Positions 6,658 through 62,161 of a DNA stretch of 64,000 nt are shown here, in pieces. Positions within the stretch are counted from its first letter, which is position 1, and the number at the start of each line of letters is the position of its first letter. Under the pieces are notes generated by a model, which was given only the letters and a program-made list of their open reading frames with translations, was not told the origin of the DNA and ran no database searches. The stretch comes from Tichowtungia aerotolerans (GTDB taxonomy: Bacteria; Verrucomicrobiota; Kiritimatiellia; Kiritimatiellales; Tichowtungiaceae), in assembly GCF_009905215.1 (NCBI RefSeq), contig NZ_CP047593.1:620001-684000 (forward strand), written 5' to 3'. The translations under genes were made by a program, and so were the position numbers.

Positions 6658-6713
6658 TTCAGAGGTTGGGCCGGCCGCACCGGTTAGGCTGCTCCGGGTT
6701 CCAACCTTTGGAA
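6658..6713. repeat. TTCCAA-N3-TTGGAA palindrome with degenerate partner
   Basis: TTCCAACCTTTGGAA at 6699-6713 (one mismatched pair) lies between the convergent ends of the IclR and oxidoreductase genes. A decayed copy starts 41 bp upstream at 6658, matching the pair spacing seen at other sites in this window. Confidence 0.55.
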
Positions 6714-20957: not shown

Positions 20958-22474
20958 CAGACCATCTCCGGAACATCGAGTGAATCAAACTGCGAAAGGA
21001 ACGCCTGCATACGTGCAGCAATCTTCGCAACGCCGCCGGCTTCTTCGCTCTCAATATTGAGCGGCAGAACCGGATCGTGCAGCGATTTGCGCAGCAGCGC
21101 CCATCCGTTGCCGGCGGAGGCATCGACGGTCACATGTACTCCTTCAAAATTATTCGGCGTGGCGTTCCAGCCCGGCTCATCCGCCACAAACTGCTCAAAT
21201 GCTTTCAGCACATCGTCGCCATACGGGCCGAAATCTTCGGTGGTAATCTTGGCACGGTACTCCTTGGCTTCGGCCGGTTCCGGCAGACCGTCAACCAGCG
21301 TATCCACCCCGCCCTTGCCTTCGCCGTGCAACTGCGCGGTTTTGATCAGAATTTTTGCAATCTGATAAGCGCCGTCGTCGAGGAAGTAGTTTTCCTTCAG
21401 CGCGCCGTGGCCGGAGGTTTCCATCGCCAGCCAGGACTCCCTGTCCTCGCCGTTGAGGCGAATGGATTCGTTGATCACGTTTTTATAGCCGCGTTTGAAA
21501 CGGTGATGAACACCGCCGAGTTTTTCTTCGATCCAGTATTTGAGACCGGTTGAGGTCACCGAGTCGGTCACAATGACGGTTCCCGGATGCTCTTCGAGCA
21601 CGATGGTGGACATCAGCGCGATAAAGCGGTTGCGGTTGATCGGCTTGCCGTTTTTATCAACCGCGCCGGCGCGATCGACATCCGTGTCAAAAATAATGCC
21701 GAGATCCGCCTTGTTGTTTTCGACGGCGGAAATGATGGCGTCCATCGCCTCCGGCTCTTCCGGATTCGGAATGTGGTTCGGGAAACTTCCGTCCGGATCG
21801 AGGAACTGGCTTCCGGTGGTATCCGCGCCAAGCGGCTTGAGTACTTTATCGACGAAATATCCGCCCGCTCCGTTGCCGGCATCGACCACGATTTTCAACC
21901 CGGCCAGCGGCGTGTCGCCCTGCCCCGCACCTTTCCGAATATTGGAAACGAGAGATGCAGCGTAGTCGTCCATCAGCTCGATTTTCCGAACTTTGGAAAG
22001 TTCGACCTCATCGAATGTTCCGGTTTCGGTCGCGGTGGTCAGAATCGCTTTGATATCCGCTTTTTCGAGACCGCCGTCGCGGGTGAAAAATTTGAGCCCG
22101 TTGCGGTTGAACGGCAGGTGGCTGGCGGTCAGCATAATGGAGCCGTCGTAGGCGTGATTGTCAAACACGGTTGCCATAAACATCGCCGGAGTGGAAGAAA
22201 GGCCGCTGTCGGCGATTTCGGAGCAGCCTGCTTTTTCCACCCCCTGAAAAACCGCGGTTTTGACCATCTCAGCGGAAAGACGAGAATCGTGACCGACTGC
22301 GATTTTGAGCTCCGAAACCGGCTTGCCCTTTTTCTCCGCGAGCCACTGAGCAAAGGCGTATCCGATCGGGCGGACAATTTCCGGCGTCAGATTGACAGCC
22401 TCGCCTTCGACTCCCTCAAGCGCTACGCCGCGCACATCACTTCCGTTCTGCAGTTTAAACCATGTTTGATCCAT
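20957..22474 (-). CDS. Phosphomannomutase/phosphoglucomutase
   Basis: 505 residues of the alpha-D-phosphohexomutase superfamily, which moves a phosphate between C1 and C6 of a hexose. The phosphoserine loop TASHLPFNRNG puts the reactive serine at 118 (TASHNP in most members; here asparagine is replaced by leucine). The Mg2+ loop reads DTDVDRAG where DGDGDR is usual. The sugar loop ETSGHG follows. The active-site architecture is therefore conserved with the same substitutions seen in plant-type and large bacterial mutases. It probably feeds nucleotide-sugar synthesis. The ATG at 22474 follows TTTTTTCTCC read in reverse (GGAG). Confidence 0.85.
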   Translation of the reverse strand: MDQTWFKLQNGSDVRGVALEGVEGEAVNLTPEIVRPIGYAFAQWLAEKKGKPVSELKIAVGHDSRLSAEMVKTAVFQGVEKAGCSEIADSGLSSTPAMFMATVFDNHAYDGSIMLTASHLPFNRNGLKFFTRDGGLEKADIKAILTTATETGTFDEVELSKVRKIELMDDYAASLVSNIRKGAGQGDTPLAGLKIVVDAGNGAGGYFVDKVLKPLGADTTGSQFLDPDGSFPNHIPNPEEPEAMDAIISAVENNKADLGIIFDTDVDRAGAVDKNGKPINRNRFIALMSTIVLEEHPGTVIVTDSVTSTGLKYWIEEKLGGVHHRFKRGYKNVINESIRLNGEDRESWLAMETSGHGALKENYFLDDGAYQIAKILIKTAQLHGEGKGGVDTLVDGLPEPAEAKEYRAKITTEDFGPYGDDVLKAFEQFVADEPGWNATPNNFEGVHVTVDASAGNGWALLRKSLHDPVLPLNIESEEAGGVAKIAARMQAFLSQFDSLDVPEMV

Positions 22475-22655: not shown

Positions 22656-25600
22656 ATGAAACTCAAAGAACGAATCCAATCCAGACCGCTGCTACTCGAT
22701 GGCGCCCAGGGAACCTTTCTCCAAAACTGCGATATCACCCCGGAACAGTGGGGCGATGTCGAAGGCTGCAACGAATGGCTCAACCTCTCAGCCCCCGACG
22801 TCATTCGCGGACTGCACCGCGCCTATTTTGAAGCCGGCTCCGACGCTGTGGAAACCAACACCTTCGGCGCATCACCAATCACGCTCGGCGAATACAACCT
22901 CTCCGACCGCGCTTATGAAATCAACAAAGCCGCCGCCGCTCTCGCCCGCGAGGTGGCCGACGAATTCTCGACCGATGAGCAGCCGCGCTACATCATCGGC
23001 TCCATTGGTCCCGGCACCAAACTGCCGTCTTTGGGACACATTACTTTCGACGAACTGCTGGCCGCATATAAAATCCAGATTCAGGGACTGGTCGACGGTG
23101 GGGTCGACGGACTGATCATCGAAACCTGCCAGGATCCGCTGCAGATCAAGGCAGCGCTGTCGGCGGCGGACGATATCCTCGGGCCGGACAGCGATATCGT
23201 GCGCTACGTTTCCGTCACCATTGAAACCACCGGCACGCTGCTGGTCGGAACCAGCCCGGCGGCAGCCGCTGCCATTCTTGCCCCCTACCCGATTGACGTC
23301 CTCGGCCTCAACTGCGCCACGGGGCCGGACGCCATGAAACACCATCTTGACACCTTTAACGAACTGTGGCCCGCACAGCTCGCCTGTATGCCCAACGCCG
23401 GAATGCCCGAAGCACGGGCAGACGGCTCCGTTCACTATCCGCTCCAGCCCGAAGAGTTCGCGGAAAAAGTCGGCGCTCTCGCACGGGAACACGGTCTCTC
23501 CATCGTCGGCGGCTGCTGCGGCACCACGCCCAGACACATTGCCGAATTGAGAAAGCAATTTTCCAACGATTGGAACAATGAAGGGGTGGAGGCTCAGCCT
23601 CCTTCCAACGGTTGGAAAATCCGCGAACCGGCCCCAGCCCCGCAACAGGCAGCCAGTCTCTTTTCCGCTGTGGAGCTGACACAGGAGCCCGCGCCGCTCT
23701 ATATCGGCGAACGCGCCAATGCCACCGGCTCTCGAAAATTCCGCGACACCCTGCTCTCCAATGACTATGAAAACGCCTTCCACATACTGACCGAACAGGA
23801 AGAAACCGGTGCGCACGTACTCGACCTCAGCTGCGGCTATGCCGGACGCGATGAACGCAAAGACATCGAGGTGCTCGTTCCGCGTATGGCGCGTGAATGC
23901 ACTGCACCGATGATGATCGATTCCACCTCCGCCGACGTCATTGAAGACGCACTGAAATGCTACGGCGGCCGGGCCATGATCAACTCCATCAACTTTGAAG
24001 ACGGCGGAGAGCGCGCCGAGCGCGTCGTTCCGCTGGCGAAACGATTCGGGGCATCACTGGTCGGCCTGACCATCGATGAAAAGGGAATGGCGATGAATGC
24101 GGATGAAAAGTTCGCGATCGCCAAACAACTGGTCGAGTTCTGCGTTGAGCGAGGACTTCGCGCCGAGGATCTGCTGATCGACCCGCTGACGTTTACGATC
24201 TGCAGCGGTGACGATACGCTGCGCGATGCCGCGTTCCAAACCCTGGAAGCCATCCGCCGGATCAAAGCCGAGCTGCCGGGCGTACGTACCATGCTGGGAT
24301 TGTCCAACATTTCGTTCGGCCTCAAGCCGGCGCTGCGCAAAGTGCTGAATGCGGTCTTTCTGCATCAGGCGGTCGAAGCCGGCATGGACGCATGCATTAT
24401 CAACGTCGCCGCCATCGTACCGCTCAACGAAATTCCGGACGAGCTGCGCAAAGGTGCCGAGGCGCTGCTGGCGAACGATACCTCCAACGGCGACCCGCTC
24501 GAAAACTACATCAACCTGTTTGAAAATGTGGTTGAGGAATCGGAGACTTCCATTGAAGAGCGCCCGGCGGACGAAGTACTGCGCGACGCCATTATTCGCG
24601 GGAAAATTCCGTGGCTTGAACCGGCAGTCCCCGATCTGCTCAAGGAACAGGCTGCTGAAGATATTCTGAACAACATCATGCTCCCGGCCATGAAAGAGGT
24701 CGGCCGCCTCTTTAATGACGGGATCATGCAGCTGCCGTTCGTACTGAAAAGCGCGGAAGTTATGAAACGGGCGGTGGATATGATCAAACCGTTCATGACA
24801 ACTACCGAAGCAGACGAAACCGTACCGCTGGTCGTTCTGGCGACCGTGGCCGGTGATGTGCACGACATCGGCAAAAACCTGGTTGGGATCATTCTCTCCA
24901 ACAATGGTTTTGATACGGTCGACATCGGCATCAAAGTGCCGATCGAGCAAATGATGCAGGCGGTCAAAGACCATAACGCCGCCGCACTCGGCATGAGCGG
25001 GCTGCTGGTGAAATCCACCGCCGTGATGGCTGAAAACATGAAGGTTCTCGAACAGGCCGGGTTCAAAACCCCGGTCCTGCTCGGCGGAGCCGCGCTGTCC
25101 GAAAAATTTGTTCACGAAGCCTGCCGTCCACACTATTCCGGAGAGGTACTCTACTGCAAAGATGCTTTTGCCGGACTGGCCGCCCTGCAGACATTCAAGG
25201 ACACCGGCCGCCTGCCGGAATATGTTGAGCCGACCCGTGATGGACTCGGCTGTGAAGTTCCAGACTCTGGACACGAAGAGGAAGAACAGTCCGAACCGAT
25301 CGCTCAGGATGTGCCGGTTCCCGATGTAGAACTCGACACGTGGATCACAACAGATATCGACCTCGATGAAATCTGGAAGTATCTCGACCTCGATGGTCTG
25401 ATCAAAGGGGCATGGGGCTATAAAAAAGGCGGATTGTCCGACGAGGAATATCAGAAACTTCTCGATGAAGAGGTGTATCCAAACCTTGAAAAAATGCAGG
25501 AGCTGGCCCGCGAGATCTTCGAACCGAAAACCGTTCACGGCTTTTTCAAATGCCGCTCAGAAGGCGATCATTTCTACCTGACCAACCCGCAAACCGGCGA

Positions 25601-26081
25601 AGAGATCCCGACGACCTTTCCGCGCCAGAACAAAGCGCCTCATCACTGTCTGGCCGACTTTTTCCGTCCGGATGGAGACGTCTGCGCACTGACAGCCGTC
25701 ACAATCGGACACAAGGTGATGGAAAAAGAACAGGAACTGCGGGATGCCGATTGTTATCAGGACTACCTGCTTTTCCACGGGCTGGCCATCATGACCGCCG
25801 AAGCCCTCAACGAATATATGCACAAACAGGTGCGCCTTCAGTGGGGATCGGATGAAGGTGATCTGCCGCTAAGAGAAATCTGGAAACAAAAGCTCGACCA
25901 AAGCCGTTTCGGGTTCGGCTATGCCGCCTGCCCTGATCTCGAGATGAATAAAGTCGTCTGTGATCTGCTCGACACCGAGCGCATCAATCTGCGAACGACC
26001 GAGCTGTTTATGTGCGACCCGGAGGTTTCCACCCTTGCTCTGGTGACCCACCATCCGCAGTCGTATTATTTTAATTTGTAG
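22656..26081 (+). CDS. metH: Cobalamin-dependent methionine synthase
   Basis: 1141 residues from the ATG at 22656, about the family length. It transfers a methyl group from methyltetrahydrofolate to homocysteine through B12. Domains in order: homocysteine-binding (1-300, zinc ligands in GLNCATG and GGCCGTTPRH), pterin-binding (from about 350, IGERANATGSRKF and PMMIDSTSADV), B12-binding cap and Rossmann domain with DVHDIGKN carrying the histidine that ligates cobalt, and the C-terminal AdoMet activation domain with SRFGFGYAACP. All expected motifs are intact. The linker at residues 303-321 is written by two palindromic repeats (23561-23617) that are in frame and add an SNDW...SNGWK-type segment. 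It stands alone between divergent and convergent neighbours. Confidence 0.95.
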   Translation: MKLKERIQSRPLLLDGAQGTFLQNCDITPEQWGDVEGCNEWLNLSAPDVIRGLHRAYFEAGSDAVETNTFGASPITLGEYNLSDRAYEINKAAAALAREVADEFSTDEQPRYIIGSIGPGTKLPSLGHITFDELLAAYKIQIQGLVDGGVDGLIIETCQDPLQIKAALSAADDILGPDSDIVRYVSVTIETTGTLLVGTSPAAAAAILAPYPIDVLGLNCATGPDAMKHHLDTFNELWPAQLACMPNAGMPEARADGSVHYPLQPEEFAEKVGALAREHGLSIVGGCCGTTPRHIAELRKQFSNDWNNEGVEAQPPSNGWKIREPAPAPQQAASLFSAVELTQEPAPLYIGERANATGSRKFRDTLLSNDYENAFHILTEQEETGAHVLDLSCGYAGRDERKDIEVLVPRMARECTAPMMIDSTSADVIEDALKCYGGRAMINSINFEDGGERAERVVPLAKRFGASLVGLTIDEKGMAMNADEKFAIAKQLVEFCVERGLRAEDLLIDPLTFTICSGDDTLRDAAFQTLEAIRRIKAELPGVRTMLGLSNISFGLKPALRKVLNAVFLHQAVEAGMDACIINVAAIVPLNEIPDELRKGAEALLANDTSNGDPLENYINLFENVVEESETSIEERPADEVLRDAIIRGKIPWLEPAVPDLLKEQAAEDILNNIMLPAMKEVGRLFNDGIMQLPFVLKSAEVMKRAVDMIKPFMTTTEADETVPLVVLATVAGDVHDIGKNLVGIILSNNGFDTVDIGIKVPIEQMMQAVKDHNAAALGMSGLLVKSTAVMAENMKVLEQAGFKTPVLLGGAALSEKFVHEACRPHYSGEVLYCKDAFAGLAALQTFKDTGRLPEYVEPTRDGLGCEVPDSGHEEEEQSEPIAQDVPVPDVELDTWITTDIDLDEIWKYLDLDGLIKGAWGYKKGGLSDEEYQKLLDEEVYPNLEKMQELAREIFEPKTVHGFFKCRSEGDHFYLTNPQTGEEIPTTFPRQNKAPHHCLADFFRPDGDVCALTAVTIGHKVMEKEQELRDADCYQDYLLFHGLAIMTAEALNEYMHKQVRLQWGSDEGDLPLREIWKQKLDQSRFGFGYAACPDLEMNKVVCDLLDTERINLRTTELFMCDPEVSTLALVTHHPQSYYFNL
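23561..23617. repeat. Paired TTCCAA palindromes with central GGAGGCTCAGCCTCC, inside metH
   Basis: TTCCAACGATTGGAA at 23561-23575 and TTCCAACGGTTGGAA at 23603-23617, starts 42 bp apart. Between them lies GGAGGCTCAGCCTCC, itself a perfect 7-bp-arm palindrome around one base. The 57-bp segment is 19 codons and keeps the metH frame, falling in the inter-domain linker. Confidence 0.85.
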
Positions 26082-26104
26082 AACCAGCCGGGTTTATCCC
26101 CGGA
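26082..26104 (+). terminator. Weak hairpin at the metH/trpF convergence
   Basis: CCGGG at 26089 pairs with CCCGG shortly after, but no T-run follows directly. It overlaps the end of trpF. It may help stop both transcripts; the call is tentative. Confidence 0.3.
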
Positions 26105-26726
26105 CGGCTTTAATAAATTTTTTGACTTTGCGGATGTTTTTGACACCGGGTTCCTTCTCGACGCCGGAGCTGACATCCACGCCCCACGGATGAACGACAT
26201 CAATTGCCTCGGCAACATTGTCCGCATTCAGGCCGCCGGCCAGCATCACCGGCCGGCCCAGCGTTTCTTTCATTTCAACCGCCCGGTCCCAGCTGCTGAG
26301 TTTGCCGGTACCGCCGACCGTATTGGGATCAAAGGAATCCGCAAGCAGAACTGACGGCTCAGGATCAACCACTTTAAGCAGATTCTCGGTAACGCCCTCG
26401 CTCATGCGCGGCGAAAGCCATATTTCCAGGCCATGGAACAGCGGACGGTCAATTTTCCAATCATTGGAAACCAAATGGATTTGAATGACGTCGAGCTCAC
26501 ACGTGCGGGCGATAGACTCAACCGTATCGGCCGGCGGCTCCACAAACACACCAACCTTTTTTATGGTTTCCGGAATTGCCGGGAGCCACGTAGCCACCTG
26601 CTCCGGACGCACATAGCGCCCGGCGTTCGGCCAAAAGATAAAACCGATGGCATCCGGCCCTAATGCACAAATCTGCTCCAGATCTTTTCTGGAGCAGATT
26701 CCGCAGATTTTAATAAATACGCTCAT
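26094..26726 (-). CDS. trpF: Phosphoribosylanthranilate isomerase
   Basis: 210 residues, the usual TrpF size. It opens the furanose ring of N-(5'-phosphoribosyl)anthranilate in tryptophan synthesis. Conserved signatures are KICGI at 7-11 with the catalytic cysteine, a DAIGFIFWPNAGRYV strand-loop, LADSFDPNTVGGTGK with the catalytic aspartate, LAGGLNADNV and WGVDVSSGVE. The second repeat-bearing gene of the window: TTCCAATCATTGGAA at 26455-26469 encodes SNDWK between residues 85 and 90 and is in frame. It is 8 bp from the azoreductase-like gene in the same direction. Confidence 0.93.
   Translation of the reverse strand: MSVFIKICGICSRKDLEQICALGPDAIGFIFWPNAGRYVRPEQVATWLPAIPETIKKVGVFVEPPADTVESIARTCELDVIQIHLVSNDWKIDRPLFHGLEIWLSPRMSEGVTENLLKVVDPEPSVLLADSFDPNTVGGTGKLSSWDRAVEMKETLGRPVMLAGGLNADNVAEAIDVVHPWGVDVSSGVEKEPGVKNIRKVKKFIKAVRG
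26455..26469. repeat. TTCCAA-N3-TTGGAA palindrome inside trpF
   Basis: Perfect 15-bp copy read in frame as VSNDWKI in TrpF. An imperfect TTCCAGGCCATGGAA lies 31 bp away at 26424. No copy is found at the usual 42-bp spacing. Confidence 0.75.
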
Positions 26727-28807: not shown

Positions 28808-28837
28808 GCCTTCACCCACCCTTTCCAAACATTGGAA
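28799..28837. repeat. Repeat copy at the end of trpB
   Basis: GAAGGCTGAGCCTTC (28799-28813) overlaps the trpB stop, and TTCCAAACATTGGAA lies at 28823-28837. Order and type match the composite element in metH (core palindrome then TTCCAA palindrome). A decayed partner starts at 28866, 43 bp after the second. Confidence 0.65.
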
Positions 28838-28893
28838 ACTCAATTGGTCGCCGGAACTTCCGGCGGCCAAAAGCTGGGAAAAAGGTCCTGAAT

Positions 28894-28951
28894 TTCCAAA
28901 GGTTGGAAAAGAAAGCCGGATGGAGGCTCAGCCTCCTTCCAAACCCTGAAA
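28894..28951. repeat. Paired TTCCAA palindromes with central GGAGGCTCAGCCTCC, after trpB
   Basis: TTCCAAAGGTTGGAA at 28894-28908 and a partly decayed TTCCAAACCCTGAAA at 28937-28951, 43 bp apart. TGGAGGCTCAGCCTCC between them is identical to the copy inside metH. It is 16 bp from the 3' end of the convergent helicase gene and could serve as a bidirectional stop, but has no T-run. Confidence 0.8.
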
Positions 28952-31572: not shown

Positions 31573-31648
<76 letters not shown>

Positions 31649-31711
31649 CCACAAACCATTGCAAACAAATGACTTAACTACAATTTTACTTGATTGTTTT
31701 GCAGAATTAAC

Positions 31712-31773
31712 TGGTTGCATTTTAGGCGTAAAGCCCCGAAAAAAACATACTCAGCGTTGCATTTTGGTTGCAT
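31712..31773 (+). promoter_or_regulatory. Candidate integrase arm-binding sites, left end
   Basis: TGGTTGCAT at 31712-31720 and 31765-31773, plus GTTGCAT at 31756. The same nonamer appears once near the right end (38566-38574). These lie in the 140-bp non-coding space inside attL; arm-type binding is inference. Confidence 0.45.
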
Positions 31774-31789
31774 CGCCTCCCTCCCACTA

Positions 31790-32506
31790 CTAATCACTGT
31801 ATTTTTCTCTCAAGCTCTCGAAGTCTTGATGCAGACCATTAGACACCTGCGGAGAAGTATCGACCGTAAGAATCCTTCGATTGCCAAAAAATCCGGGATA
31901 CTCAAACACTATTCGGCACCCTGTAACCGTTTGTTTAACCGGATTACCATTCCTTCTTATACTGTCTGACTTAAACCAACTGCACCCGCTGTAACATAAG
32001 AGCCCCCACGATGACGTGGTATACGGGGGAACGACCACAAAGCTGTGCGTTGCAGCGCCTGATACGGTGCATTCCATATCTGAAACATGCATGGGGGATA
32101 TGGTTGTATGAGACCCCGAGACTTTAGACAGGTCATCAGGCATAAAATAATGATTTTCGAGATTTGTTAAAAATCTGACACTACGGATAGTGATTTCGAC
32201 CGAAGTACAATTCTTAATTGTTAAATACACGTACTGGCTATTTGGCGATGGTCCTATGTGAAACCCAACCGAACGGGGAGAGAGGGCCGTTTTCAAAGCC
32301 TGCTCCAGTTTTATATCCCTAACCCATGTTCCAATATATGCCAAGGCAGCCCAAATAAGAGCCGTGCATGTTCCACTAATCAGGCTATATCCCAAGCTTA
32401 AGGACATGGAAAACGCTAGAGCAATGGCTAAAACAATTAGGGCAGCAAGACCAATTGAGTTTCGTTTTGCGCTATCTGACCAGAGGGTAAAAGTTGTGTG
32501 CTTCAT
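31790..32506 (-). CDS. Membrane-anchored cargo protein of unknown function
   Basis: 238 residues. Two hydrophobic segments near the N-terminus (IGLAALIVLAIALAFSMSL and ISGTCTALIWAALAYIGTW), followed by a soluble domain of about 175 residues rich in serine and beta-type patterns (VYLTIKNCTSVEITIRSVRF). No known domain is recognised. It lies next to the left end of the integrated element, the place where satellites and islands usually carry accessory or anti-phage genes. The start MKHTT at 32506 is preceded by AATGAAG-like purines, not a strong ribosome site. A defence role is only a positional guess. Confidence 0.55.
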   Translation of the reverse strand: MKHTTFTLWSDSAKRNSIGLAALIVLAIALAFSMSLSLGYSLISGTCTALIWAALAYIGTWVRDIKLEQALKTALSPRSVGFHIGPSPNSQYVYLTIKNCTSVEITIRSVRFLTNLENHYFMPDDLSKVSGSHTTISPMHVSDMECTVSGAATHSFVVVPPYTTSSWGLLCYSGCSWFKSDSIRRNGNPVKQTVTGCRIVFEYPGFFGNRRILTVDTSPQVSNGLHQDFESLREKYSD

Positions 32507-32620
32507 TGATGTAAAAGCGTAGTGATTTGAAGCAATTCAAGCAACCACCTTGCTCACCTAAACTTTTCCGCTCTTGCACTCCTTCAAAAAAGGAGTACGG
32601 TTCGCCCAGACATTTGAATT

Positions 32621-32800
32621 TTGCGTTTGTGTAAGTTGCTCTGCTCAGAAACCGCCAATTTTAAGCACAGAGAACAGTCTGCACAGGGACGCGCCCGCTC
32701 GGGCGTGGCTTGTGTTCGTTTCTCTGTGCGGGTGCTTGGCGGTACCTTGAGCGGGGGCGTCATGAGTCACGCCTCTTTTTTTGAGGCAGAAAGGACAATT
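32621..32800 (+). other. Structured leader region with open frame upstream of the lipoprotein
   Basis: The frame of the lipoprotein is open upstream to 32621 and would encode segments such as GVACVRFSVRVLGG and GGVMSHASFF. The DNA can fold extensively. GCACAGAGAA near 32660 pairs with TTCTCTGTGC near 32723 (10 bp), enclosing a CGCCCG-CT-CGGGCG hairpin. GGCGT/ACGCC and GCCTC-T7-GAGGC hairpins follow just before AAAGGACAATT. This looks like a regulatory RNA leader or an overlapping small gene of the Ash/Icd-like type found in P4-type islands; the latter rests on memory of short motifs only. Confidence 0.35.
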
Positions 32801-32827
32801 ATGGATGAGATGGAATATGAGGTCACT

Positions 32828-33217
32828 ATGATTAAATTAGCCCGCAATTTGTCTGTTCGCGCTCTTATCCTTGTTACCGTGGGATTTATGGTCATTTCAG
32901 GCTGCGCATATTCATCTGGAACAAAAAGCGCATCAAACTTAGATGCTCGCCAAAAAATAGTTAAAGGTCAGACCAGTAAGAACGAAGTCCTCCGATTGTT
33001 TGGACCTCCAACTATGCGTATAGGCATCGGATCAGACCGGGAAACATGGAGCTACTCTTATGCTGAGGCAAAAGCTCAAAAAAGGATGTTCATCCCAATT
33101 GTTGGGCCCTTGATTGGCAGCGTAGACTCTGAGGCTCATTCCATAACCATCGGCTTTGATTCCAATGGAGTAGTAAAAACAGTGAGCGTTTTTGACCAAA
33201 CCGGAGGTCGCCGTTAG
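32828..33217 (+). CDS. BamE/SmpA-like lipoprotein (cargo)
   Basis: 129 residues from the ATG at 32828. A signal peptide with lipobox VISGC leads to a small domain of the SmpA/OmlA/BamE type (IVKGQTSKNEVLRLFGPPT and ETWSYSY are typical). BamE helps assemble outer-membrane proteins; small phage-encoded relatives are sometimes surface lipoproteins. An alternative start at 32801 (MDEMEYEV, with AAAGGA upstream) would put acidic residues before the signal peptide and is less likely. It is cargo of the integrated element and may alter the outer membrane of the host. Confidence 0.7.
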   Translation: MIKLARNLSVRALILVTVGFMVISGCAYSSGTKSASNLDARQKIVKGQTSKNEVLRLFGPPTMRIGIGSDRETWSYSYAEAKAQKRMFIPIVGPLIGSVDSEAHSITIGFDSNGVVKTVSVFDQTGGRR

Positions 33218-33334
33218 CGGAAAAAAATTTTACCCAAAAATTTTCCGAACAAAAATTGCACCCCGCGATTTACGGAGGAGGAATAACGATTTTTTTAAAA
33301 GCCCCACGTAGCGGTTTATAAATGGAGAAAAAAA

Positions 33335-33490
33335 ATGGACGTATCTGCATCTTCAGAAATGCTTGAGGAAAGTAAAAAACAAACCCGTTACCTCAAGGAG
33401 ATCCACAACCTGATAGGCTTTATAATTGCCGTACAGGGAATATTGATTATTGCAGTAGGGGCAATTGTTTATTGGAAAATCTATTCCTAA
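33335..33490 (+). CDS. 51-residue single-pass membrane protein (cargo)
   Basis: Reads MDVSASSEMLEESKKQ at the start, a short charged segment, then a long hydrophobic helix (IGFIIAVQGILIIAVGAIVYW) and stop TAA at 33488. GGAG at 33324 is 7 bp before the ATG. It overlaps nothing and ends directly beside the convergent primase stop. The layout recalls holin-like or toxin-type small proteins, but no family is recognised. Confidence 0.6.
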   Translation: MDVSASSEMLEESKKQTRYLKEIHNLIGFIIAVQGILIIAVGAIVYWKIYS

Positions 33491-34480
33491 CTAGCTTTTG
33501 AATATGCCCTTTGGGCTGGGGGCGGGATTGATATAAAGCAGCCTTTGCCATCGGCCTCTTTCCTCTCTGTAATGCCCCGGCAGACGGCTTAGGCGTGACG
33601 GATTAGCGCAAGCAGGGTCACACCCCATCGGGACAAGCATTTTCCTGTACAGGGTTTCCTTTACAGTGAGCCGCCATTGTTCGGGGGTGTAGATTTCTGA
33701 AAGCTTTATCCATGCATGAATGCTTTTCCCGCCTGAATCAATGAGGGCGGCAATGGGAAACGGGGCCGCACACCAGAAAGCTATCTGGTCTTCGCGGCTC
33801 ATATTGTCGAATTCCGCCACCGCAAACCGATATTCTTTTATTGCCGCATCGCATCGCATTGAGTCCTTCCCGTCTTTAGTTTTGTGTGTCGTTCCTGTTA
33901 ATGGGTTAGGGATTATGTGCGGCATTTTGCTGGTGTCCTGATCCTGTATGATGAACTCCTTAAAATCTGCCACAGTGCAGGGCTCTTTTAGATAGCGAGA
34001 ACCGATAAAAAGGTATTCACAAGGCGCATAGAATGCTTCCAGCAGGCAAAGGGAATCCTCAAAAGGATGCCCGCCTAGTTGCAATGTGCTTTTTTCCAGC
34101 AGGGCATTTTCTGAATATTTTCTACCCACCTGTATCAACCGTTTTTTCAACGTAGCGGGAGCGCAGGACAAGCCGATTGTCGGGGGCGGTGGTGCGGGTA
34201 TGTTTTCTGCTCCTTGCTCATGGTCGGCGCGGGCCTTTTGAACAGCACTCCAAATTTCCGAGTCTGGCACATAGCGGGCGCACTCATCGGTTTGCCCGCG
34301 AATGTCTTCAAAGATCGTCTCATCGTCAAAGCCCGCTTTCACTCCGATATTCGCTACCCCCAAAATAGCGGGATGATACCCCGCACCTGTAGGGGGAAGG
34401 GTTTCCAGCTTGTGCAGGTATTTTGAGCGCATATCCGGGGCGTGCTGGCGGAGATGTTGTTTTAGTTTTTCTTTGTTCAT
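33491..34480 (-). CDS. AEP-type primase
   Basis: 329 residues. The centre has the archaeo-eukaryotic primase pattern: FAVAEFDN (motif I acidic residues), IDSGGKSIHAWIKL (the SxH motif II) and GCDPACANPSRLSRLPGHYR near the C-terminus, typical of plasmid and satellite primases. An N-terminal helical region (residues 1-110; EIWSAVQKARADHEQG) resembles PriCT-like modules. It lies downstream of an origin-like region and convergent to the small cargo ORF. It most likely primes replication of the excised element with the helicase encoded upstream. Confidence 0.75.
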   Translation of the reverse strand: MNKEKLKQHLRQHAPDMRSKYLHKLETLPPTGAGYHPAILGVANIGVKAGFDDETIFEDIRGQTDECARYVPDSEIWSAVQKARADHEQGAENIPAPPPPTIGLSCAPATLKKRLIQVGRKYSENALLEKSTLQLGGHPFEDSLCLLEAFYAPCEYLFIGSRYLKEPCTVADFKEFIIQDQDTSKMPHIIPNPLTGTTHKTKDGKDSMRCDAAIKEYRFAVAEFDNMSREDQIAFWCAAPFPIAALIDSGGKSIHAWIKLSEIYTPEQWRLTVKETLYRKMLVPMGCDPACANPSRLSRLPGHYREERGRWQRLLYINPAPSPKGIFKS

Positions 34481-34709
34481 GGCAATTTCTCCTTTTTTTT
34501 CTGCGTGTGTGTGTGGTGACGGGGTGTCACCCTCTGCCCCATTCCTGTGTTATTTATATTATTATTATCTGACTATAGAGGTAGAGGGTGGAGCCTTGAC
34601 ACCAGCCTTTATTTATAGGGCTAAAAAGGTGACACACGCGGTTTTTCAAGCCCGGCAAGGGTGACACCCGTCTCAAGGGATTTTGATTTTTTAGCTCTTT
34701 TTTCAAAAT
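34481..34709. other. Candidate replication origin with GTGACAC repeats
   Basis: The 229-bp gap between helicase and primase genes holds GGTGAC-5-GTCACC at 34515-34531, TTGACACC near 34596, GGTGACAC at 34628-34635 and GGGTGACACCC at 34659-34669. An AT-rich stretch (34541-34578) lies between the first and the others. Short repeats around an AT-rich tract next to primase and helicase genes are what an iteron-type or P4-type origin looks like. Confidence 0.5.
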
Positions 34710-36068
34710 CTAGCCCCCTTGTTCTTTTTCCGGTGCGATACACCATTCCCTGTTAGATTTGCTTCTTACGCTCTCAACCCGTTCAGGGTGTATTTTCTGA
34801 AGCCTTCCAAGCAGGGCCGCGCACGCACTGGGGAAGCTGAACAACTGGCTTGTCTGTTGCGGTGCTGCCGTCCTAAGCATTCCGTCTAACGATGCCGCCG
34901 AACCCCGGAACGGAAGCCGAATATGCGTCTCTATCAGCTCAAGCAGCTCTGTTTCCTTGGAGGTATTGCGGAGTGCCCGCAAAAGCTCGGGATGATGAAA
35001 GGCCTTTACTACATACCGTTCAGATCGTTTGTCGGCGGGCACGTCCATATCTTTGAGCACGTACAGAAGTCCGCTTGCATCACTGCATAGCCGCTTCCAG
35101 AATTGCGACCGCTCCTCTGCCGTATTGGTTGGCATTGGTAGCGGAGATTTCCGTGCTTGCAACAGGATAATTTTATCCTCAAGGCTCTTTTCCATCCGGG
35201 GAAGAACCTGCAAATTTTCTTCCTCATCGTTCAGGCTGAAACTCAAAACCCAGAACGGGGAAAGCATGATTGCATCCCTGCCTTTCGCATGCAGGCGGTG
35301 TTCGGAGCCTACAGCAATTTGCTTTATCTCATTTCCTAGGCTCTCCCGGCTTCGGTGATCAGTGCTTGCACTTTCATCGTCAATAATCAGGTGCTCCGCT
35401 CCGAACAGTTCCGAATTAAATTCTGTGCGCCCTGTCAGATAGCGATAGGGCTTTGCAGAGCGTCCGCCTAACGTGTAGCTGACTATTTTCTGAAGCAAGG
35501 ATTTGCCGCTCCCGGGCTCTCCGCCGATAACAAGGGCCTGTCTGGGTTTCTCACGCTCCCAGATTATCCCTTTCCACCATAGCAAAAAAGTTTCCAACTG
35601 ATCGGCGTTGTGCCCAAGCAGTCCGTCTAAAAATTCAAGCAGGACGGCATACTCTCCCTCCACTATATCAAAGGGCTTTGCCTCTGATGTAACCAGAATT
35701 CGATTCCCGCACTGCTCTACCATCCCGCAAGGATACCCGGCAAGCGGCCCTGCAAATTGAATGCTCTGATTGTCCTGAACGAACAGCAAACAATCGTCAA
35801 TAAGGCTTAGCTCTGTAAGCGGGTCGCGGGCATTGGAAATACCTAGCTTTTTCAGTCGCCTCTTTACGTCAGACAACGGGAGGGCAATATAGCTTCCATC
35901 GCTCGCCCCATACAGATACCGGTTCCGCTGGTGGTCAAAATAGATATGTTTCACAAGCTCAGGGCTGAACTGGACCATCTCTTGCCGAAACCCGCTGAAC
36001 AATGGATGATCCAGCGGGTTCGGGTCATTAGCTACAGCTATTGCCTTTCGTTGGGAGCTGTTAGTCAT
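34710..36068 (-). CDS. SF3-type replicative helicase
   Basis: 452 residues. Walker A GGEPGSGKSLLQ at about 187-198, Walker B HLIIDDES about 45 residues later, and a sensor/arginine region (VLSFSLNDEEENLQVLPRME). This is the C-terminal ATPase of DUF5906/P4-alpha-like primase-helicases, without a primase head, which the separate downstream gene supplies. It probably unwinds the element's origin as a hexamer. The start overlaps the previous gene by 8 bp (AATGACTAA). Splitting of primase and helicase into two genes is a small variation on the P4 layout. Confidence 0.8.
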   Translation of the reverse strand: MTNSSQRKAIAVANDPNPLDHPLFSGFRQEMVQFSPELVKHIYFDHQRNRYLYGASDGSYIALPLSDVKRRLKKLGISNARDPLTELSLIDDCLLFVQDNQSIQFAGPLAGYPCGMVEQCGNRILVTSEAKPFDIVEGEYAVLLEFLDGLLGHNADQLETFLLWWKGIIWEREKPRQALVIGGEPGSGKSLLQKIVSYTLGGRSAKPYRYLTGRTEFNSELFGAEHLIIDDESASTDHRSRESLGNEIKQIAVGSEHRLHAKGRDAIMLSPFWVLSFSLNDEEENLQVLPRMEKSLEDKIILLQARKSPLPMPTNTAEERSQFWKRLCSDASGLLYVLKDMDVPADKRSERYVVKAFHHPELLRALRNTSKETELLELIETHIRLPFRGSAASLDGMLRTAAPQQTSQLFSFPSACAALLGRLQKIHPERVESVRSKSNREWCIAPEKEQGG

Positions 36069-36414
36069 TAGCAGCCCCTTCCAAAAAGTCGGGGTGCGCT
36101 TTGAGAATCATTTTTATGATTTGTCGGAGGCGCATCTTTGATGCGCTCAGCGGAATGGAAACAATCTCATCAAGAGGCAAGGCCCATTTCGGGTTTACTT
36201 TGATCCGGTCATCTTCTTTTACCTTTCCGTAAAAGTTGAATCCCAGTATCTCAACATTCTTGAGGTCATCCCCTTTGATGGATATGCCAAGGAAATAGTT
36301 TCCCGGAATCAGCTCAAACGAAAAGGGTTCCTCTTGGCTTTGAGATTGGCCGTCACCACAGCAAGTTACAGGAGAGATAAGGATTAGCTTTGTTACGTCT
36401 TGCCTGTCACTCAT
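36061..36414 (-). CDS. Small unknown protein of the element's replication operon
   Basis: 117 residues from an ATG that overlaps the AlpA-like gene's stop (ATGA). The N-terminal part is serine/glutamine-rich, then beta-type pattern (FELIPGNYFLGISIKGDDLKN). I recognise no domain. Its position between the AlpA-like regulator and helicase suggests a replication or copy-control accessory. Confidence 0.6.
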   Translation of the reverse strand: MSDRQDVTKLILISPVTCCGDGQSQSQEEPFSFELIPGNYFLGISIKGDDLKNVEILGFNFYGKVKEDDRIKVNPKWALPLDEIVSIPLSASKMRLRQIIKMILKAHPDFLEGAAND

Positions 36415-36614
36415 GCCGCACCCCCAATCTTGCACTCTTCTAAGAAGAGGTCGAGGTCGGCAATGTCATAAACAAGACAGCGAGGCCCTATTTTAGAATA
36501 AGGAATTCGCCCTTGTTTGGTGAGGTCGTGTAAATAGCGCCGGGAAATTCCCAGATATTCACTAGCCGCCCCCGCCTTAAGGGCGCGTGGTTTTGTTTTG
36601 TTGCTTATCGCCAT
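36411..36614 (-). CDS. AlpA/excisionase-like DNA-binding protein
   Basis: 67 residues forming one MerR/AlpA-type winged helix: KAGAASEYLGISRRYLHDL is the recognition part, followed by GRIPYSKIGPRCLVYDIADL and a terminal helix. Such proteins bind att sites to direct excision or activate integrase-element genes. It heads the replication operon on the minus strand and is divergent from nothing; transcription begins in the 109-bp gap up to 36723. Confidence 0.85.
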   Translation of the reverse strand: MAISNKTKPRALKAGAASEYLGISRRYLHDLTKQGRIPYSKIGPRCLVYDIADLDLFLEECKIGGAA

Positions 36615-36723
36615 ATTATCTCCTTCTGTTTGTCTATGTACGGCAAGATGAGATTCTCGCCTTCAGGAGGAGATAATGGAGGACTGTTGCAGCAAGCACA
36701 AAGGTGCTAAATTAGACACATAG

Positions 36724-37296
36724 CTAGGGAGAATACAATATTGCTAAAGCCCTGATGTTTTTCAGGTCGCCATCCATCGAGTCTCGACATAGCTCAAGAT
36801 ACGAAAGAAAACAGCTGGCAGAGCCCGTCTTTGGGGCCATTTCTGCATGTTTTTCAAACAGGTCTGCAAACTGCCTAAAAACATATCTTTGCAGCAAGCT
36901 GTAGGGCTTCCGGCTCTTTCCCTTACCAAACTTTTTTGACAGAATGCTTTGGTAAAAGCTCACCCCATCATGATTCGGACAATTCGGCTTTTTTGTTTTT
37001 TTCCAAAGCGAGTCGAGGCCTCGCTGTAGGTCGCTTTTCCTGCGAGCCAGTTTTATTTCCAACCCGTCCACCCTTATATAGTCGATATTTAGCAGTTCTT
37101 TTTCGCTCAAAGTCTTCAGGTAAGCCTTGAACTCATTTGATTCCGGAAGGCGTGAATTAAAAACATGCTGAAAACAAATGCAAAGAGGAATGGTGTCTCT
37201 TGCTAAGGCAGTTGCGGCTTCTGGGGAAAGAGTAGGAATATAAGCTCCTACCCTGCCGGGGGTGATAAATTCTGATAGGGTTTCTAGCTTGCTCAT
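36724..37296 (-). CDS. Unknown protein coupled to the integrase
   Basis: 190 residues from an ATG that overlaps the integrase stop (ATGA), so it is translated with it. It is rich in lysine, leucine and cysteine in its first half (IPLCICFQHVFNSRLPESNE) and helical in the second (LQRYVFRQFADLFEKHAE). No known domain recognised. Translational coupling to the integrase suggests a role in integration/excision control or immunity. Confidence 0.6.
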   Translation of the reverse strand: MSKLETLSEFITPGRVGAYIPTLSPEAATALARDTIPLCICFQHVFNSRLPESNEFKAYLKTLSEKELLNIDYIRVDGLEIKLARRKSDLQRGLDSLWKKTKKPNCPNHDGVSFYQSILSKKFGKGKSRKPYSLLQRYVFRQFADLFEKHAEMAPKTGSASCFLSYLELCRDSMDGDLKNIRALAILYSP

Positions 37297-38513
37297 GCCG
37301 CCTTCGACTTTTTTATTTGCACCACCTTCCCCGCTGTTGCGGGTTTGATTTGGAAATACGATTGCGCCTGTGCTTTGCGGTTTTTCGCAAGGCCTTTGTA
37401 GTGCCGCTGGAGCATTTTAGAATCTGTGTGCCCTAGGCGGTGCAGGGTTTCATCCAACCCTTCCAGCGCAAAGCAAAAGGTTGCAAAGGTGTGTCGCGCC
37501 CCGTCCTGAATAGATGGAGCTTCGGCCTTTTGGTAGACCTTTACGCGCCACCGCTTGAGAGTAGTCGCGGAGTACGGGAAAATCTTCCCGTCTTTTTTGC
37601 GGTATTTCAAAAGCCATGCTTTCAGATTCTCCGGCATGGTGACAATACGGGCCGAGCGGGTTTTGGATTGATCGGCCCGAATGTGAATTTCCCCGAGATT
37701 CAAATCAACATCCTTCCAGCCTAGACGGGTGATTTCTTCGGGGCGCACCCCGGCGAAAAAAGCAAGAGCAAGGTATGGCACAAGGTCGGGGTGCAGTTCC
37801 TCTGCCTGTTTGAAAATGGCTTTTACCTCTTTGGGTGTATAAATGCCGGGGGTGTGCGATTCCATCACTGTTTGGCGGGTGCGTTTAACGGGATTGGCGG
37901 TCGCTTTGCCCTCCCGCATTGCCCAATTGTAGAACCCACCCAGATAGCGTTTTAGATTTGCACGGCTCGTTCCCTGAATCCCTTGTTCATCTAAAAAAAC
38001 GTCAATGTCCTTCGGTTCTACGGCATCAACCGCCATATGTTCGAACGCTTCCTTGCAGGGTTTTAGCCATTTTTTAATTTCGCTGAACGAGCGGGGGCGC
38101 AAATCGCCGCGCTTCATGTCACGTTCTTTTTTCTGGATATACTGCTCTACTAAAGGGCCGAAACCGTTCGAGCTATCAACTTTTTGATGGTGTTTTATGT
38201 AGAACTTAGCAGCAGCTCTCAGGTTTACCCCGTATTCTTTCAGCAAAAACAGGGCTTCAACTGCATCCGTTTTTTGTTCATCGCTGAACCGCAGGGCAGC
38301 AATCCCCTTGTTCCCGGCCTCAATGCTCTTCTTTTGCGCCCAGCCAATGGCAGCATCTTTTGTTTTGCAGGTCTTCCGAACATGCTTGCCGGATTTGCGC
38401 CCAAGGTCTACCTGATACCGCTTCCCTGCCGTTGTCTCAATTAGCCGAATTCGAAAGCCGTGGTGAATCTCGAATTTGTCCTCTTTGAATGTCGCATCCG
38501 TTGCCTTTTTCAT
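37293..38513 (-). CDS. Tyrosine-type site-specific integrase
   Basis: 406 residues. An N-terminal SAM-like region (about 110-210), and a catalytic domain with the first arginine in FFAGVRPEEITRLGW, a GARHTFATFCF block for the second arginine, LGHTDS for the second histidine, and YKGL with the nucleophile tyrosine in RHYKGL. The first H of the HxxR motif appears as Q in IQDGARHT, a known type of change in this subgroup. It catalyses recombination between the 45-bp att repeats; attR begins 126 bp upstream of its start. Confidence 0.93.
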   Translation of the reverse strand: MKKATDATFKEDKFEIHHGFRIRLIETTAGKRYQVDLGRKSGKHVRKTCKTKDAAIGWAQKKSIEAGNKGIAALRFSDEQKTDAVEALFLLKEYGVNLRAAAKFYIKHHQKVDSSNGFGPLVEQYIQKKERDMKRGDLRPRSFSEIKKWLKPCKEAFEHMAVDAVEPKDIDVFLDEQGIQGTSRANLKRYLGGFYNWAMREGKATANPVKRTRQTVMESHTPGIYTPKEVKAIFKQAEELHPDLVPYLALAFFAGVRPEEITRLGWKDVDLNLGEIHIRADQSKTRSARIVTMPENLKAWLLKYRKKDGKIFPYSATTLKRWRVKVYQKAEAPSIQDGARHTFATFCFALEGLDETLHRLGHTDSKMLQRHYKGLAKNRKAQAQSYFQIKPATAGKVVQIKKSKAA

Positions 38514-38565
38514 AATGGCAACATGATGAAAGATAGGCGTGGAAAAGCAAGCATTCGTTGCAAAT

Positions 38566-38574
38566 TGGTTGCAT
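38566..38574 (+). promoter_or_regulatory. Candidate integrase arm-binding site, right end
   Basis: TGGTTGCAT, identical to the two left-end copies, lies between the integrase start and attR. A related GTTGCAA is at 38557. Confidence 0.4.
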
Positions 38575-38638
38575 CTTTATTTTTATTACTACAGTAACAA
38601 TCTACATTGCAACACTTTATAAAATCATGACCTACTGT

Positions 38639-38683
38639 CTCTTAATCAGCGGGTCCAGGGTTCGAGCCCCTGCGCGTCTACCA
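38639..38683 (+). repeat. Right attachment repeat
   Basis: 45 bp identical to the 3' part of tRNA-Lys, ending in CCA. It contains no complete tRNA, only the anticodon-loop-to-CCA segment, as expected for attR. Confidence 0.9.
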
Positions 38684-40555: not shown

Positions 40556-40876
40556 ATGACAGACAAACGTTTATTCTGTGTTATTTCTGATCAATACGTT
40601 TACCAACGAGAAACCGGTTACAGTTCTCATCGGCCACTTTATGCCTTCAACCCACACCCCTTCTCTACACCCACGTCTTAAAACAGTTAAAGACACAACA
40701 GTGAAGCGCATCCTGATTCCAATTTACCAAAGGATCTTTCAAATTCGCTAGCACGTTAAAGACAAGTAGCAGAACGATCACGCCATAAGAACCCACGCGT
40801 CTTTTCTCCAAAGGTTGGAAAACCAGTTGCATCGCAAGACACATTTTTCCAAGGTCTGGAAACAAAGGAAACTTTC
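40556..40876. other. 321-bp divergent intergenic region
   Basis: It separates the TonB-like operon and the symporter gene. The right half has paired repeats at 40806-40861. AAAGGAAA near 40863 is the likely symporter ribosome site. I see no tRNA, small ORF with a convincing start, or terminator. Confidence 0.5.
40806..40861. repeat. Paired TTCCAA palindromes before the symporter gene
   Basis: Copy with one changed base (CTCCAAAGGTTGGAA) at 40806-40820 and TTCCAAGGTCTGGAA at 40847-40861, starts 41 bp apart. The second ends 16 bp before the symporter start. Confidence 0.7.
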
Positions 40877-42349
40877 ATGGAACACCTCGGCATACTCATC
40901 ACCTTCGCGGCTTATCTGCTCTTCATGCTCGCCGTGGGAACCCACTTCTACAAACGCAACGAATCCCTTTCGGACTACCTGATTGGTGACCGCCAGCTTA
41001 ACAAATGGGTCACCTCCATGAGCGCACAGGCCTCTGACATGAGCGGCTGGCTGCTGCTCGGGCTTCCCGGCTATGCCTACCTTCAGGGCATGGAAGCATT
41101 CTGGATTGCCTTCGGTCTCGCTGCCGGCACCTACCTGAACTGGAAATTTGTTGCGCGGCGGCTGAGGTGCTACACCGAAGCCGCCGGAAACGCCATCACT
41201 CTGCCGGATTATTTCGCCAACCGTTTTGAAGACCACAACCGGCTTCTGCGCGTTTTATCCGCCCTCTTTATCCTCGTCTTCTTCCTGATCTATACCGCCT
41301 CCGGATTCGTCGCCGGCGCCAAGCTCTTCGAGTCGGTCTTCGGGCTGCCTTACCAAAGCGCACTGCTCATCGGCGCCGTCGTTATCATCTCCTACACCGC
41401 ACTCGGCGGTTTCATGGCCGTCAGCTGGACCGACTTCTTTCAGGGCATCATCATGTTCTTTGCCATCATCACCGTTCCAATGCTTGGAATCCATGCGGCA
41501 GGGGGATTCGCGGAGTCTTCCAATGCCTGGAAAAATGTCAGCCCCGGTTTTCTCAGCATTTTCACGGATGGAGCGGGAACTCAACTTCGAGCCACAGCGA
41601 TCCTCTCTCTGGCAGCATGGGGAATCGGATATTTCGGACAGCCGCACATCCTCACCCGCTTCATGGCAATCCGGTCTCCCTCTGAAATCAAACCGGCCCG
41701 GCACATTGCCATGACATGGGTCCTCGTCAGTCTCTTCTGCGCCCTACTGGTTGGATTCGTCGGACGCGCGATTCTGCCGGAACTTCTTTCCAAAACGGAT
41801 TCAGAAAAGGTCTTCATGATTCTCGTCAATCAGCTCACACATCCGCTCATCGGCGGCATTCTGCTCGCCGCAGCTCTCGCGGCCATCATGAGCACTGCCG
41901 ACTCGCAGCTGCTGGTCACCTCCTCCGCGCTCACCGAAGACCTCTATCGCGTCATCATTCGACCCAAGGCCTCCGATCGCGAACTCGTCTGGGTCAGTCG
42001 CGGCACCGTTATCGGCGTTGCCGCGCTCGCCTGCGCCATTGCGTTGGAACCCGACAGCTCCGTACTCGGCCTGGTCTCCTATGCGTGGGCCGGATTCGGC
42101 GCCACGTTCGGCCCGCTCGTCCTCATGTCGCTCTACTGGAAGCGAATGACCCGCAACGGCGCTGTTGCAGGCATCATCGGCGGCGGACTCACCGTACTCA
42201 TCTGGAAACAGCTCGGCACCGGACTCTACGAAATCGTCCCCGGGTTCATCGCCTCTATTCTGCTCATCATCCTTTTCAGCAAACTCGACGAACCACCCGA
42301 TCAGAAAATCCTAACCCGTTTTGATGATGTGATAAAATCACAACACTAA
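40877..42349 (+). CDS. Sodium/solute symporter (PutP-like)
   Basis: 490 residues of the SSS family with about 13 transmembrane helices. PutP features are SLSDYLIGDRQLNKWVTSMSA, QASDMSGWLLLGLPG, YLNWKFVARRLRCYTE, IMSTADSQLLVTSSALTEDLY (Na+ site) and SYAWAGFGATFGPLVLMSLYW. The closest character is proline:Na+ symport. Two palindromes at 41475-41532 lie in the coding sequence; the second codes for SNAWK in the loop after helix 5. It is transcribed with acylphosphatase and the amidohydrolase (16-bp and about 30-bp gaps), which may process D-amino acid derivatives. Confidence 0.92.
   Translation: MEHLGILITFAAYLLFMLAVGTHFYKRNESLSDYLIGDRQLNKWVTSMSAQASDMSGWLLLGLPGYAYLQGMEAFWIAFGLAAGTYLNWKFVARRLRCYTEAAGNAITLPDYFANRFEDHNRLLRVLSALFILVFFLIYTASGFVAGAKLFESVFGLPYQSALLIGAVVIISYTALGGFMAVSWTDFFQGIIMFFAIITVPMLGIHAAGGFAESSNAWKNVSPGFLSIFTDGAGTQLRATAILSLAAWGIGYFGQPHILTRFMAIRSPSEIKPARHIAMTWVLVSLFCALLVGFVGRAILPELLSKTDSEKVFMILVNQLTHPLIGGILLAAALAAIMSTADSQLLVTSSALTEDLYRVIIRPKASDRELVWVSRGTVIGVAALACAIALEPDSSVLGLVSYAWAGFGATFGPLVLMSLYWKRMTRNGAVAGIIGGGLTVLIWKQLGTGLYEIVPGFIASILLIILFSKLDEPPDQKILTRFDDVIKSQH
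41475..41532. repeat. Paired TTCCAA palindromes inside the symporter gene
   Basis: TTCCAATGCTTGGAA at 41475-41489 and TTCCAATGCCTGGAA at 41518-41532, starts 43 bp apart. The first is read in a different frame (VPMLGI) from the second (SNAWK). Confidence 0.7.
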
Positions 42350-60778: not shown

Positions 60779-62137
60779 TCACTTTTCAGCAAAAAGCTTA
60801 TTCACCGTCCGATCGATCATTTTGCGCTGCTCGCGCACAATAGCGTTCACCGCAGCAACCCGCTCTTTGAAAAGCGCCCAGTCAATTCCCATCGGCGCAC
60901 CGAGATGCGTCTTCTGCTCGATTGCCTTGCGCGGATCAATACTCTCGAGTTCGCCAATATTTTCCTTCACATAATGATACGCATCGCGGAACGGCATCCC
61001 CTCACCCACCAGTTCCAACGCCCGATCGGTGGCAAACACATCCGGCCTGAACCCATCGATAAGGGCCTGTTTATTCACTTCAACAGCCTCAATAAACGGG
61101 CTTAGAACCCGCAGGCAGGCGCGCGTCGTCGCCACGCCGTCCATGAAAAACTCCTTGGCGTCCTGCAGATCACGGTTGTAGCCGGTCGGCGATCCCTTGA
61201 TCAGATCATACACTGCCAGCTCACAGGCCTTAACTTTGGACGCGCGCGCACGAACGAGCTCAATCACATCCGGATTCTTCTTCTGCGGCATGATGCTGCT
61301 GCCGGTTGTCAATTCATCGGGCAGCGTAAAATAGCCGAACTCCGGCATGGTAAACAGCATCAGATCCTGCGCCATGCGTGAGAGCGTCAGCATCACCTGA
61401 CTCATTGCAGAAAGAATAATACTCTCGTTTTTTCCGCGACTGTTATTGGCGTAGAGTACGTTGTGGACCGGACAGCGGAACCCGAGCAGATCTGATGTCA
61501 GCTCGCGATTAATCTCCAGCGGCACACCATAGCTGGCGGCCGACCCCAACGGACACTGATCATTCAGCTCATACGCGTTTACCAGCAACACACAGTCATC
61601 GAGCAGGCTCTCCGCATGCGCCGACGCCCACAGCCCGACCGAACTCGGCATCCCCGGCTGCATATGCGTTCTTCCAACCATCGGAACCTTTTGATGCTTC
61701 CGCCCGAACTTCAGCAATGCAGCCGCCAGCGCGACCGCCTCTTCGATTGCTCCCAGAAGCTCTTCACGGGCAAACAGGCGCAGATCCACCGCCACCTGAT
61801 CATTGCGACTGCGGCAGGTATGGATCTTCTTGCCGAGATCACCCAGTTTTTCCGTCAGCGTACGCTCAACGGCCAAATGCACATCCTGATCGGCCAGACG
61901 GATTTTAAATTTTCCTTCATCAGCCAGCTCTATAATTTTTTTAAGCTCACCAATCACCTGCTTGCGCTCATCAGCAGTAATAATCGCCGGCTTCATTCTT
62001 GAAAGCATCGTCACATGGGCAGCTGTTCCGATGCAGTCCGCCTGGATCAGGTTCACATCGAGCTCTACATCCCGCCCGGCCGTAAACGCCAGTACTTCCT
62101 CATCAATTGTTCCGACTGTTGTCTTCTGCGTTTTCAT
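60779..62137 (-). CDS. argH: Argininosuccinate lyase
   Basis: 452 residues from MKTQKTTVGT at 62137 after AAGGCGG; an upstream start at 62167 is poorer. The superfamily signature GSSIMPQKKNPD and substrate segment TCRSRNDQVAVDLRLF (the canonical HTGRSRNDQ with T-C in place of HTG) are present. It splits argininosuccinate into arginine and fumarate, the last step of arginine synthesis. The substitution of the first residues of the signature is modest. It lies upstream of nothing else in its operon. Confidence 0.94.
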   Translation of the reverse strand: MKTQKTTVGTIDEEVLAFTAGRDVELDVNLIQADCIGTAAHVTMLSRMKPAIITADERKQVIGELKKIIELADEGKFKIRLADQDVHLAVERTLTEKLGDLGKKIHTCRSRNDQVAVDLRLFAREELLGAIEEAVALAAALLKFGRKHQKVPMVGRTHMQPGMPSSVGLWASAHAESLLDDCVLLVNAYELNDQCPLGSAASYGVPLEINRELTSDLLGFRCPVHNVLYANNSRGKNESIILSAMSQVMLTLSRMAQDLMLFTMPEFGYFTLPDELTTGSSIMPQKKNPDVIELVRARASKVKACELAVYDLIKGSPTGYNRDLQDAKEFFMDGVATTRACLRVLSPFIEAVEVNKQALIDGFRPDVFATDRALELVGEGMPFRDAYHYVKENIGELESIDPRKAIEQKTHLGAPMGIDWALFKERVAAVNAIVREQRKMIDRTVNKLFAEK

Positions 62138-62161
62138 AAATCCGCCTTTTCCTTTCCAGAT

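Follow-up and report, generated by a model that had tools for sequence, protein, structure and literature searches.

The metH gene, which encodes a cobalamin-dependent methionine synthase, contains three copies of a short palindrome, two of which match TTCCAANNNTTGGAA exactly and stand close together in the region between two domains of the protein. Further copies lie in neighbouring genes and between genes of the window, i.e. the whole stretch of 64,000 nucleotides of the Tichowtungia aerotolerans chromosome that was analysed, to which all positions refer unless another stretch is named. The principal features are the following.

6699-6713: exact copy, intergenic, with convergent genes on either side
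21933-21998: one-mismatch pair, 51 bp, in a phosphoglucomutase/phosphomannomutase gene
22656-26081, plus strand: metH, cobalamin-dependent methionine synthase, with three copies
23561-23575: exact copy 1, in the interdomain linker of MetH, read as SNDW
23576-23602, plus strand: 27-nt spacer with the inner palindrome GGAGGCTCAGCCTCC
23603-23617: exact copy 2, read as SNGWK, 42 bp (4 turns) from copy 1
24234-24248: one-mismatch copy in metH, in another frame, read as FQTLE
26455-26469: exact copy in trpF (gene 26094-26726, minus strand), read as SNDWK, residues shared by homologues without the palindrome
28823-28951: cluster between convergent genes, with exact copies at 28823 and 28894, a degenerate copy at 28937 and a second composite element (GGAGGCTCAGCCTCC)
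40806-40861: one-mismatch phased pair, 41 bp, immediately upstream of the symporter gene
41475-41489: exact copy in the sodium:solute symporter gene, frame 1, read as VPMLG
41518-41532: one-mismatch copy in the symporter gene, frame 2, read as SSNAWK, 43 bp from the exact copy at 41475
62162-62218: exact pair, 42 bp, at the start of and upstream of a lyase gene (60779-62167, minus strand)

Abundance and form of the palindrome

Allowing up to two mismatches, the window holds 26 matches to the palindrome, compared with 3.8 in shuffled sequences; the copy at 7640 is read as FQxLE. In the complete genome (3,882,676 bp, one contig) the exact palindrome occurs 567 times, and a reversed control pattern does not occur at all. 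Reading frames and spacing were studied in a sample of 1.264 Mb, composed of the window and 60 further stretches and covering about one third of the genome. In this sample TTCCRRNNNYYGGAA was found 420 times, and two controls with scrambled arms gave no occurrence. The palindrome is far above expectation in coding and non-coding DNA alike, as is characteristic of HIP-type repeats. The motif was refined to TTTTCC-RR-NSN-YY-GGAAAA, with G or C at the centre of 98% of copies and T and A tracts on the flanks. No conserved sequence was found past these tracts, and the flanks of single copies are random beyond 3 bp. Variants with one mismatch mainly carry A>G changes at the two inner positions (167/242).

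The density of copies along the sampled genome is overdispersed. Three of the 20-kb stretches (L045, L056 and L080) have no copies at up to one mismatch, where the mean is 6.9, and they carry sulfatase, solute-binding and oxidoreductase genes. The window itself includes an island at 31.6-38.7 kb with no copy at up to one mismatch. The tRNA-Lys gene at 31573-31648 pairs with a 49-nt copy (98%) of its 3' end at 38635-38683, a phage-type integrase gene lies between them at 37293-38513, and the region 31573-38683 is an integrated element of about 7 kb, free of the palindrome at the same threshold.

Reading frames, origin in place and the MetH insertion

The sample contains 193 exact copies, and 128 of them are coding, 60 are intergenic (classified by neighbour type) and 5 are at an edge or unassigned, the gene calls being approximate and made with a simple codon-based gene finder. 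Copies are denser between genes, where 12.7% of the DNA carries about a third of all exact ones, and the coding copies are evenly distributed over the length of genes. An earlier note on this DNA had read the repeat as SN(D/G/A)WK, mostly in one frame. The individual readings, namely FSNDW and PSNGWK in MetH, VSNDWK at 26455 in TrpF and SSNAWK in the one-mismatch symporter copy at 41518, were confirmed. The preferred frame, however, was not. The 128 coding copies divide into 53 read as FQxLE, 42 as xPxxG and 33 as S(N/K)xW(K/N), so that the frame taken to be usual is the rarest, and the same genes hold copies in other frames (VPMLG at 41475 in the symporter, FQTLE at 24234 in MetH). Whichever frame is used, neither arm of the palindrome holds a stop codon; the NNN codon of frame 0 is the single place where one is possible. 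Therefore, the frame is not chosen by avoidance of stops, and the proposal of such selection has no basis in the sequence.

The same note had suggested that the repeat could act as a portable linker inside proteins, visible as an insertion of 19 or about 5 residues and read in a preferred frame, and had named homologues that keep the residues without the palindrome as the observation that would refute an insertion. Such homologues exist for TrpF. SN.WK is present in every homologue of the genus in which the region could be aligned, with or without an exact palindrome, and where the exact palindrome is absent the same residues are encoded by DNA such as TTCCAACGACTGGAA or GTCCAATGAGTGGAA. The trpF site is made or broken by synonymous changes, e.g. 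GAC/GAT, and a second site in the gene (FQGLE), 31 bp away, is exact in three species. Of the exact coding copies, 17 could be compared with their counterparts in the palindrome-poor relative G008, and for 16 of these the alignment is gapless. In all, insertion was examined in two gene families and in those 17 copies; the symporter homologues, at less than 35% identity, are too distant for an insertion to be judged. At the loci tested, the TrpF series and the gapless alignments show that the sites arose in place. The features of Rickettsia-type palindromic elements are lacking here, since the coding copies are not in-frame insertions, except in the MetH composite described below, and the 53/42/33 division leaves no conserved peptide in one frame.

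Selection at the level of DNA was assessed by shuffling synonymous codons among genes, with proteins and codon usage preserved. The 128 exact coding copies of the 1.264-Mb sample compare with 2.6 +/- 1.6 after shuffling. The protein sequence itself is bent by the palindrome: the sampled proteins contain 121 instances of FQxLE, where about 3 would be expected, and 2 of the reversed ELxQF. This is a clear example of DNA-level selection outranking codon choice and reading frame.

MetH stands apart, in that a dispersed composite repeat added 14 residues to its interdomain linker. Copies 1 and 2 fall in the stretch that separates the homocysteine domain (residues 25-314) from the pterin domain (364-596), and the spacer together with one palindrome forms a 42-bp in-frame insertion relative to homologues of the same genus. 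At the same position and in the same frame, one exact palindrome is present in G003, G004, G005 and G013, a one-mismatch form in G006, and none in the others. The composite repeat expanded one old site into two, lengthening the linker by these residues. A clean in-frame gain in the linker, as the earlier note expected for MetH, is thus borne out, but the gain is of 14 residues and belongs to a separate element. In the MetH linker of two relatives (L007 1351-1400 and L016 1372-1500) another palindromic repeat, GCAGACAxGAGTGTCTGC, encodes ADTPVCS or ADKSVCPT; the linker therefore tolerates different dispersed repeats. The genuine MetH gain, placed between domains, is what speaks for a portable linker. 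As a general rule the proposal is extremely improbable, given the retained SN.WK of palindrome-free TrpF homologues, the 16 gapless copies of 17, the use of three frames with SNxWK the rarest, the even spread along genes, and the 36 of 41 neighbouring coding pairs within one gene that use two different frames and are nevertheless phased on the helix.

The composite element consists of the palindrome, AGGCTSAGCCT and a second palindrome at a fixed spacing of 42 bp, in the layout palindrome-G-N-AGGCTGAGCCT-N-CACCC-about 7 nt-palindrome. It is present in about 17 copies in this genome and in 0-23 in members of the genus, and its inner stem shows matched changes. It resembles REP and MITE repeats in having inner and outer inverted repeats; however, its outer palindromes are the genome-wide site itself, and it showed neither a target-site duplication nor a link to a transposase. 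The composite, of which the MetH insert is one copy, is also the evidence for a transposing palindromic repeat of the REP, MITE or Rickettsia type, whose fixed structure would produce phasing as a by-product. A mobile repeat accounts for the composite but not for the bulk of the copies. A conserved body beyond the palindrome exists in the composite only, the flanks of single sites are not conserved, the coding copies came without insertions, the spacers of pairs about 31 bp apart are unrelated in sequence (40 genomes), and spacings take many values, all of them whole turns. For single copies a mobile element was rejected, as both conserved flanks and insertions are absent, and as an explanation of the palindrome in general it is unlikely.

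Helical phasing and distribution among genomes

All 89 of 89 adjacent pairs in the 1.264-Mb sample (at most one mismatch, separated by 16-150 bp) share one face of the helix, with a period of 10.45 bp. The spacings are 22, 31-32, 42, 52-53, 63, 71-74, 82-84, 92-95, 106 and so on to 145 bp. The Rayleigh test gave p ~1e-30, and 2e-10 after removal of the classes of 30-33 and 40-44 bp. Phasing is equal in coding pairs (R 0.88) and intergenic pairs (R 0.89), and with a relaxed motif 82 of 85 pairs are phased. Per-genome counts summed over 40 genomes gave 430 exact pairs at 30-33 bp against 3 at 35-38 bp. In G019, a relative from another genus represented by a small sample, the phasing is weaker. 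Judged from the sequences, such phasing is the signature of a protein that probably touches the DNA from a single side.

The palindrome could instead work in mRNA as a hairpin, i.e. as a terminator, a stability signal or a pausing signal. A stem of 6-9 bp with a short loop is possible, and some site-poor relatives (L216, L218, L224 and L227) retain longer stems between genes of ribosomal-protein operons. Nevertheless, an mRNA hairpin is disfavoured and very unlikely, because helical phasing is not expected of it and because on the sense strand stem-breaking T>C changes in the 3' arm are commoner (75) than A>G changes in the 5' arm that keep a G.U pair (40), a difference to which synonymous codons may contribute. 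Copies also occur throughout genes, and the only Rfam matches in the window are tRNAs. In the same four relatives, near position 1501, the palindrome lies inside longer perfect stems, e.g. GGAAGGTTCCAANNNTTGGAACCTTCC, which adjoin genes resembling rplX-rplE and rpsG-fusA.

HIP1 of cyanobacteria is a very frequent palindrome with in-place turnover among related genomes and with an unknown function (PMC4390886). The present palindrome is likewise very frequent and turns over in place, but it is longer, bipartite, of another sequence, locked to whole helical turns and found in another phylum. An iterated palindrome of this kind, produced by mutation bias, repair or methylation instead of a structural binding protein, would agree with the massive in-place build-up in coding DNA and the rapid turnover from species to species seen here, which resemble HIP1 (PMC4390886). 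It would not predict whole-turn spacing up to about 145 bp, and the site, with its two parts, 12 fixed bases and A/T tracts on either side, is longer than methylase sites usually are. Such an origin is quite improbable. Rickettsia palindromic elements are insertions of about 150 bp that encode a conserved peptide (PMC10969869). The likeness to them lies in a palindromic repeat situated in frame inside protein genes, and the MetH composite acts in this way, whereas the single 15-bp copies are not insertions and have no fixed peptide. A search of the literature on the motif in this phylum found nothing relevant.

Palindromes in pairs occur almost exclusively in one class, the Kiritimatiellia. 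Of the 131 genomes sampled from this class, 37 carry exact pairs at 30-33 bp, with a maximum of 436 in one genome (G050); in the rest of the phylum the figure is 1 genome of 256. Each copy is one of about a thousand short palindromes that arise in place, within and between genes, in one bacterial class, close neighbours being nearly always separated by whole turns of the DNA, as would be expected of sites for a DNA-packaging or regulatory protein. Single copies range from 0 to 1177 per genome within the order. Phased clusters of several sites are found both upstream of genes and next to the terminase genes of prophages, and such arrays are also borne by some IMG/VR viral contigs. Two arrays of about 8 sites, mainly in 31-bp steps (L054 7581-7836 and L087 8473-8778), adjoin large and small terminase genes, named from sequence inspection, of two related prophages in the same genome. 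No common theme was found among genes adjacent to clusters, which include sulfatases, MutL, PheS, LemA, KilA-N and prophage terminases.

A putative binding protein and its implications

The palindromes are probably sites of a dimeric DNA-binding protein that would contact several sites on one face of the helix. TTTTCC-RR-NSN-YY-GGAAAA would be its recognition site, and the binder may be a nucleoid-associated protein or a global regulator that touches neighbouring sites from one face through cooperative binding, wrapping or short loops. Acting on the DNA, selection would make and retain the sites in and between genes through point mutations, of which many are synonymous, and the peptides S(N/K)xWK, FQxLE and xPxxG would be by-products. 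The abundance, the in-place origin at the loci tested, the phasing, the class-level distribution and the composite insertion are direct observations; the binding, the dimeric state and the function of the protein are what these patterns suggest. Against this reading, copy number differs more than tenfold among species of one genus, an uncommon degree of variation for an architectural site that is essential.

Proteins of the Lrp/AsnC family bind palindromes of about 13-15 bp with a 3-bp centre, clustered on one face of the DNA (PMC2995911, PMC10201364) and spaced by two or three helical turns (PMC2995911); their sites are described as degenerate and local to promoters (PMC2995911, PMC10201364). 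The clusters found here share this length, the 3-bp centre and the same-face spacing of two or three turns, with 22, 31-32 and 42 bp dominating. However, the present sites are nearly perfect, number hundreds per genome, lie largely within genes and have a G/C centre. Of the phylum's 387 genomes, 350 encode the Lrp/AsnC domain (PF01037). All 18 of 18 genomes of the class without it also lack pairs (hypergeometric 0.0015, ignoring kinship), and most genomes that bear it lack pairs too. No palindrome was found near the start of the conserved Lrp gene in 20 genomes examined, including array-rich ones. Lrp was rejected as the binder, since almost every genome of the phylum has the family and its gene has no palindrome nearby in the genomes examined; by analogy it may serve as a model for how the sites work, not as an identification. 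An autoregulated binder was also sought through the last sites of site-poor genomes, but these lie in ribosomal-protein operons and scattered genes, and the regulator was not found.

A wider interpretation is that the palindromes form a class-wide, sequence-directed code for chromosome packaging, in which a nucleoid protein of the Kiritimatiellia would read hundreds to thousands of sites and evolution would set neighbours on the same helix face at a cost in amino-acid choice. This is conceivable, and we put it forward only tentatively. If a protein does bind these sites, the genome itself would display the positions of binding and the spacing of its units in cultured species (Tichowtungia, Pontiella), and a sequence-specific chromosome-organising or global regulatory system would come within direct experimental reach in a phylum whose molecular biology has hardly been studied.
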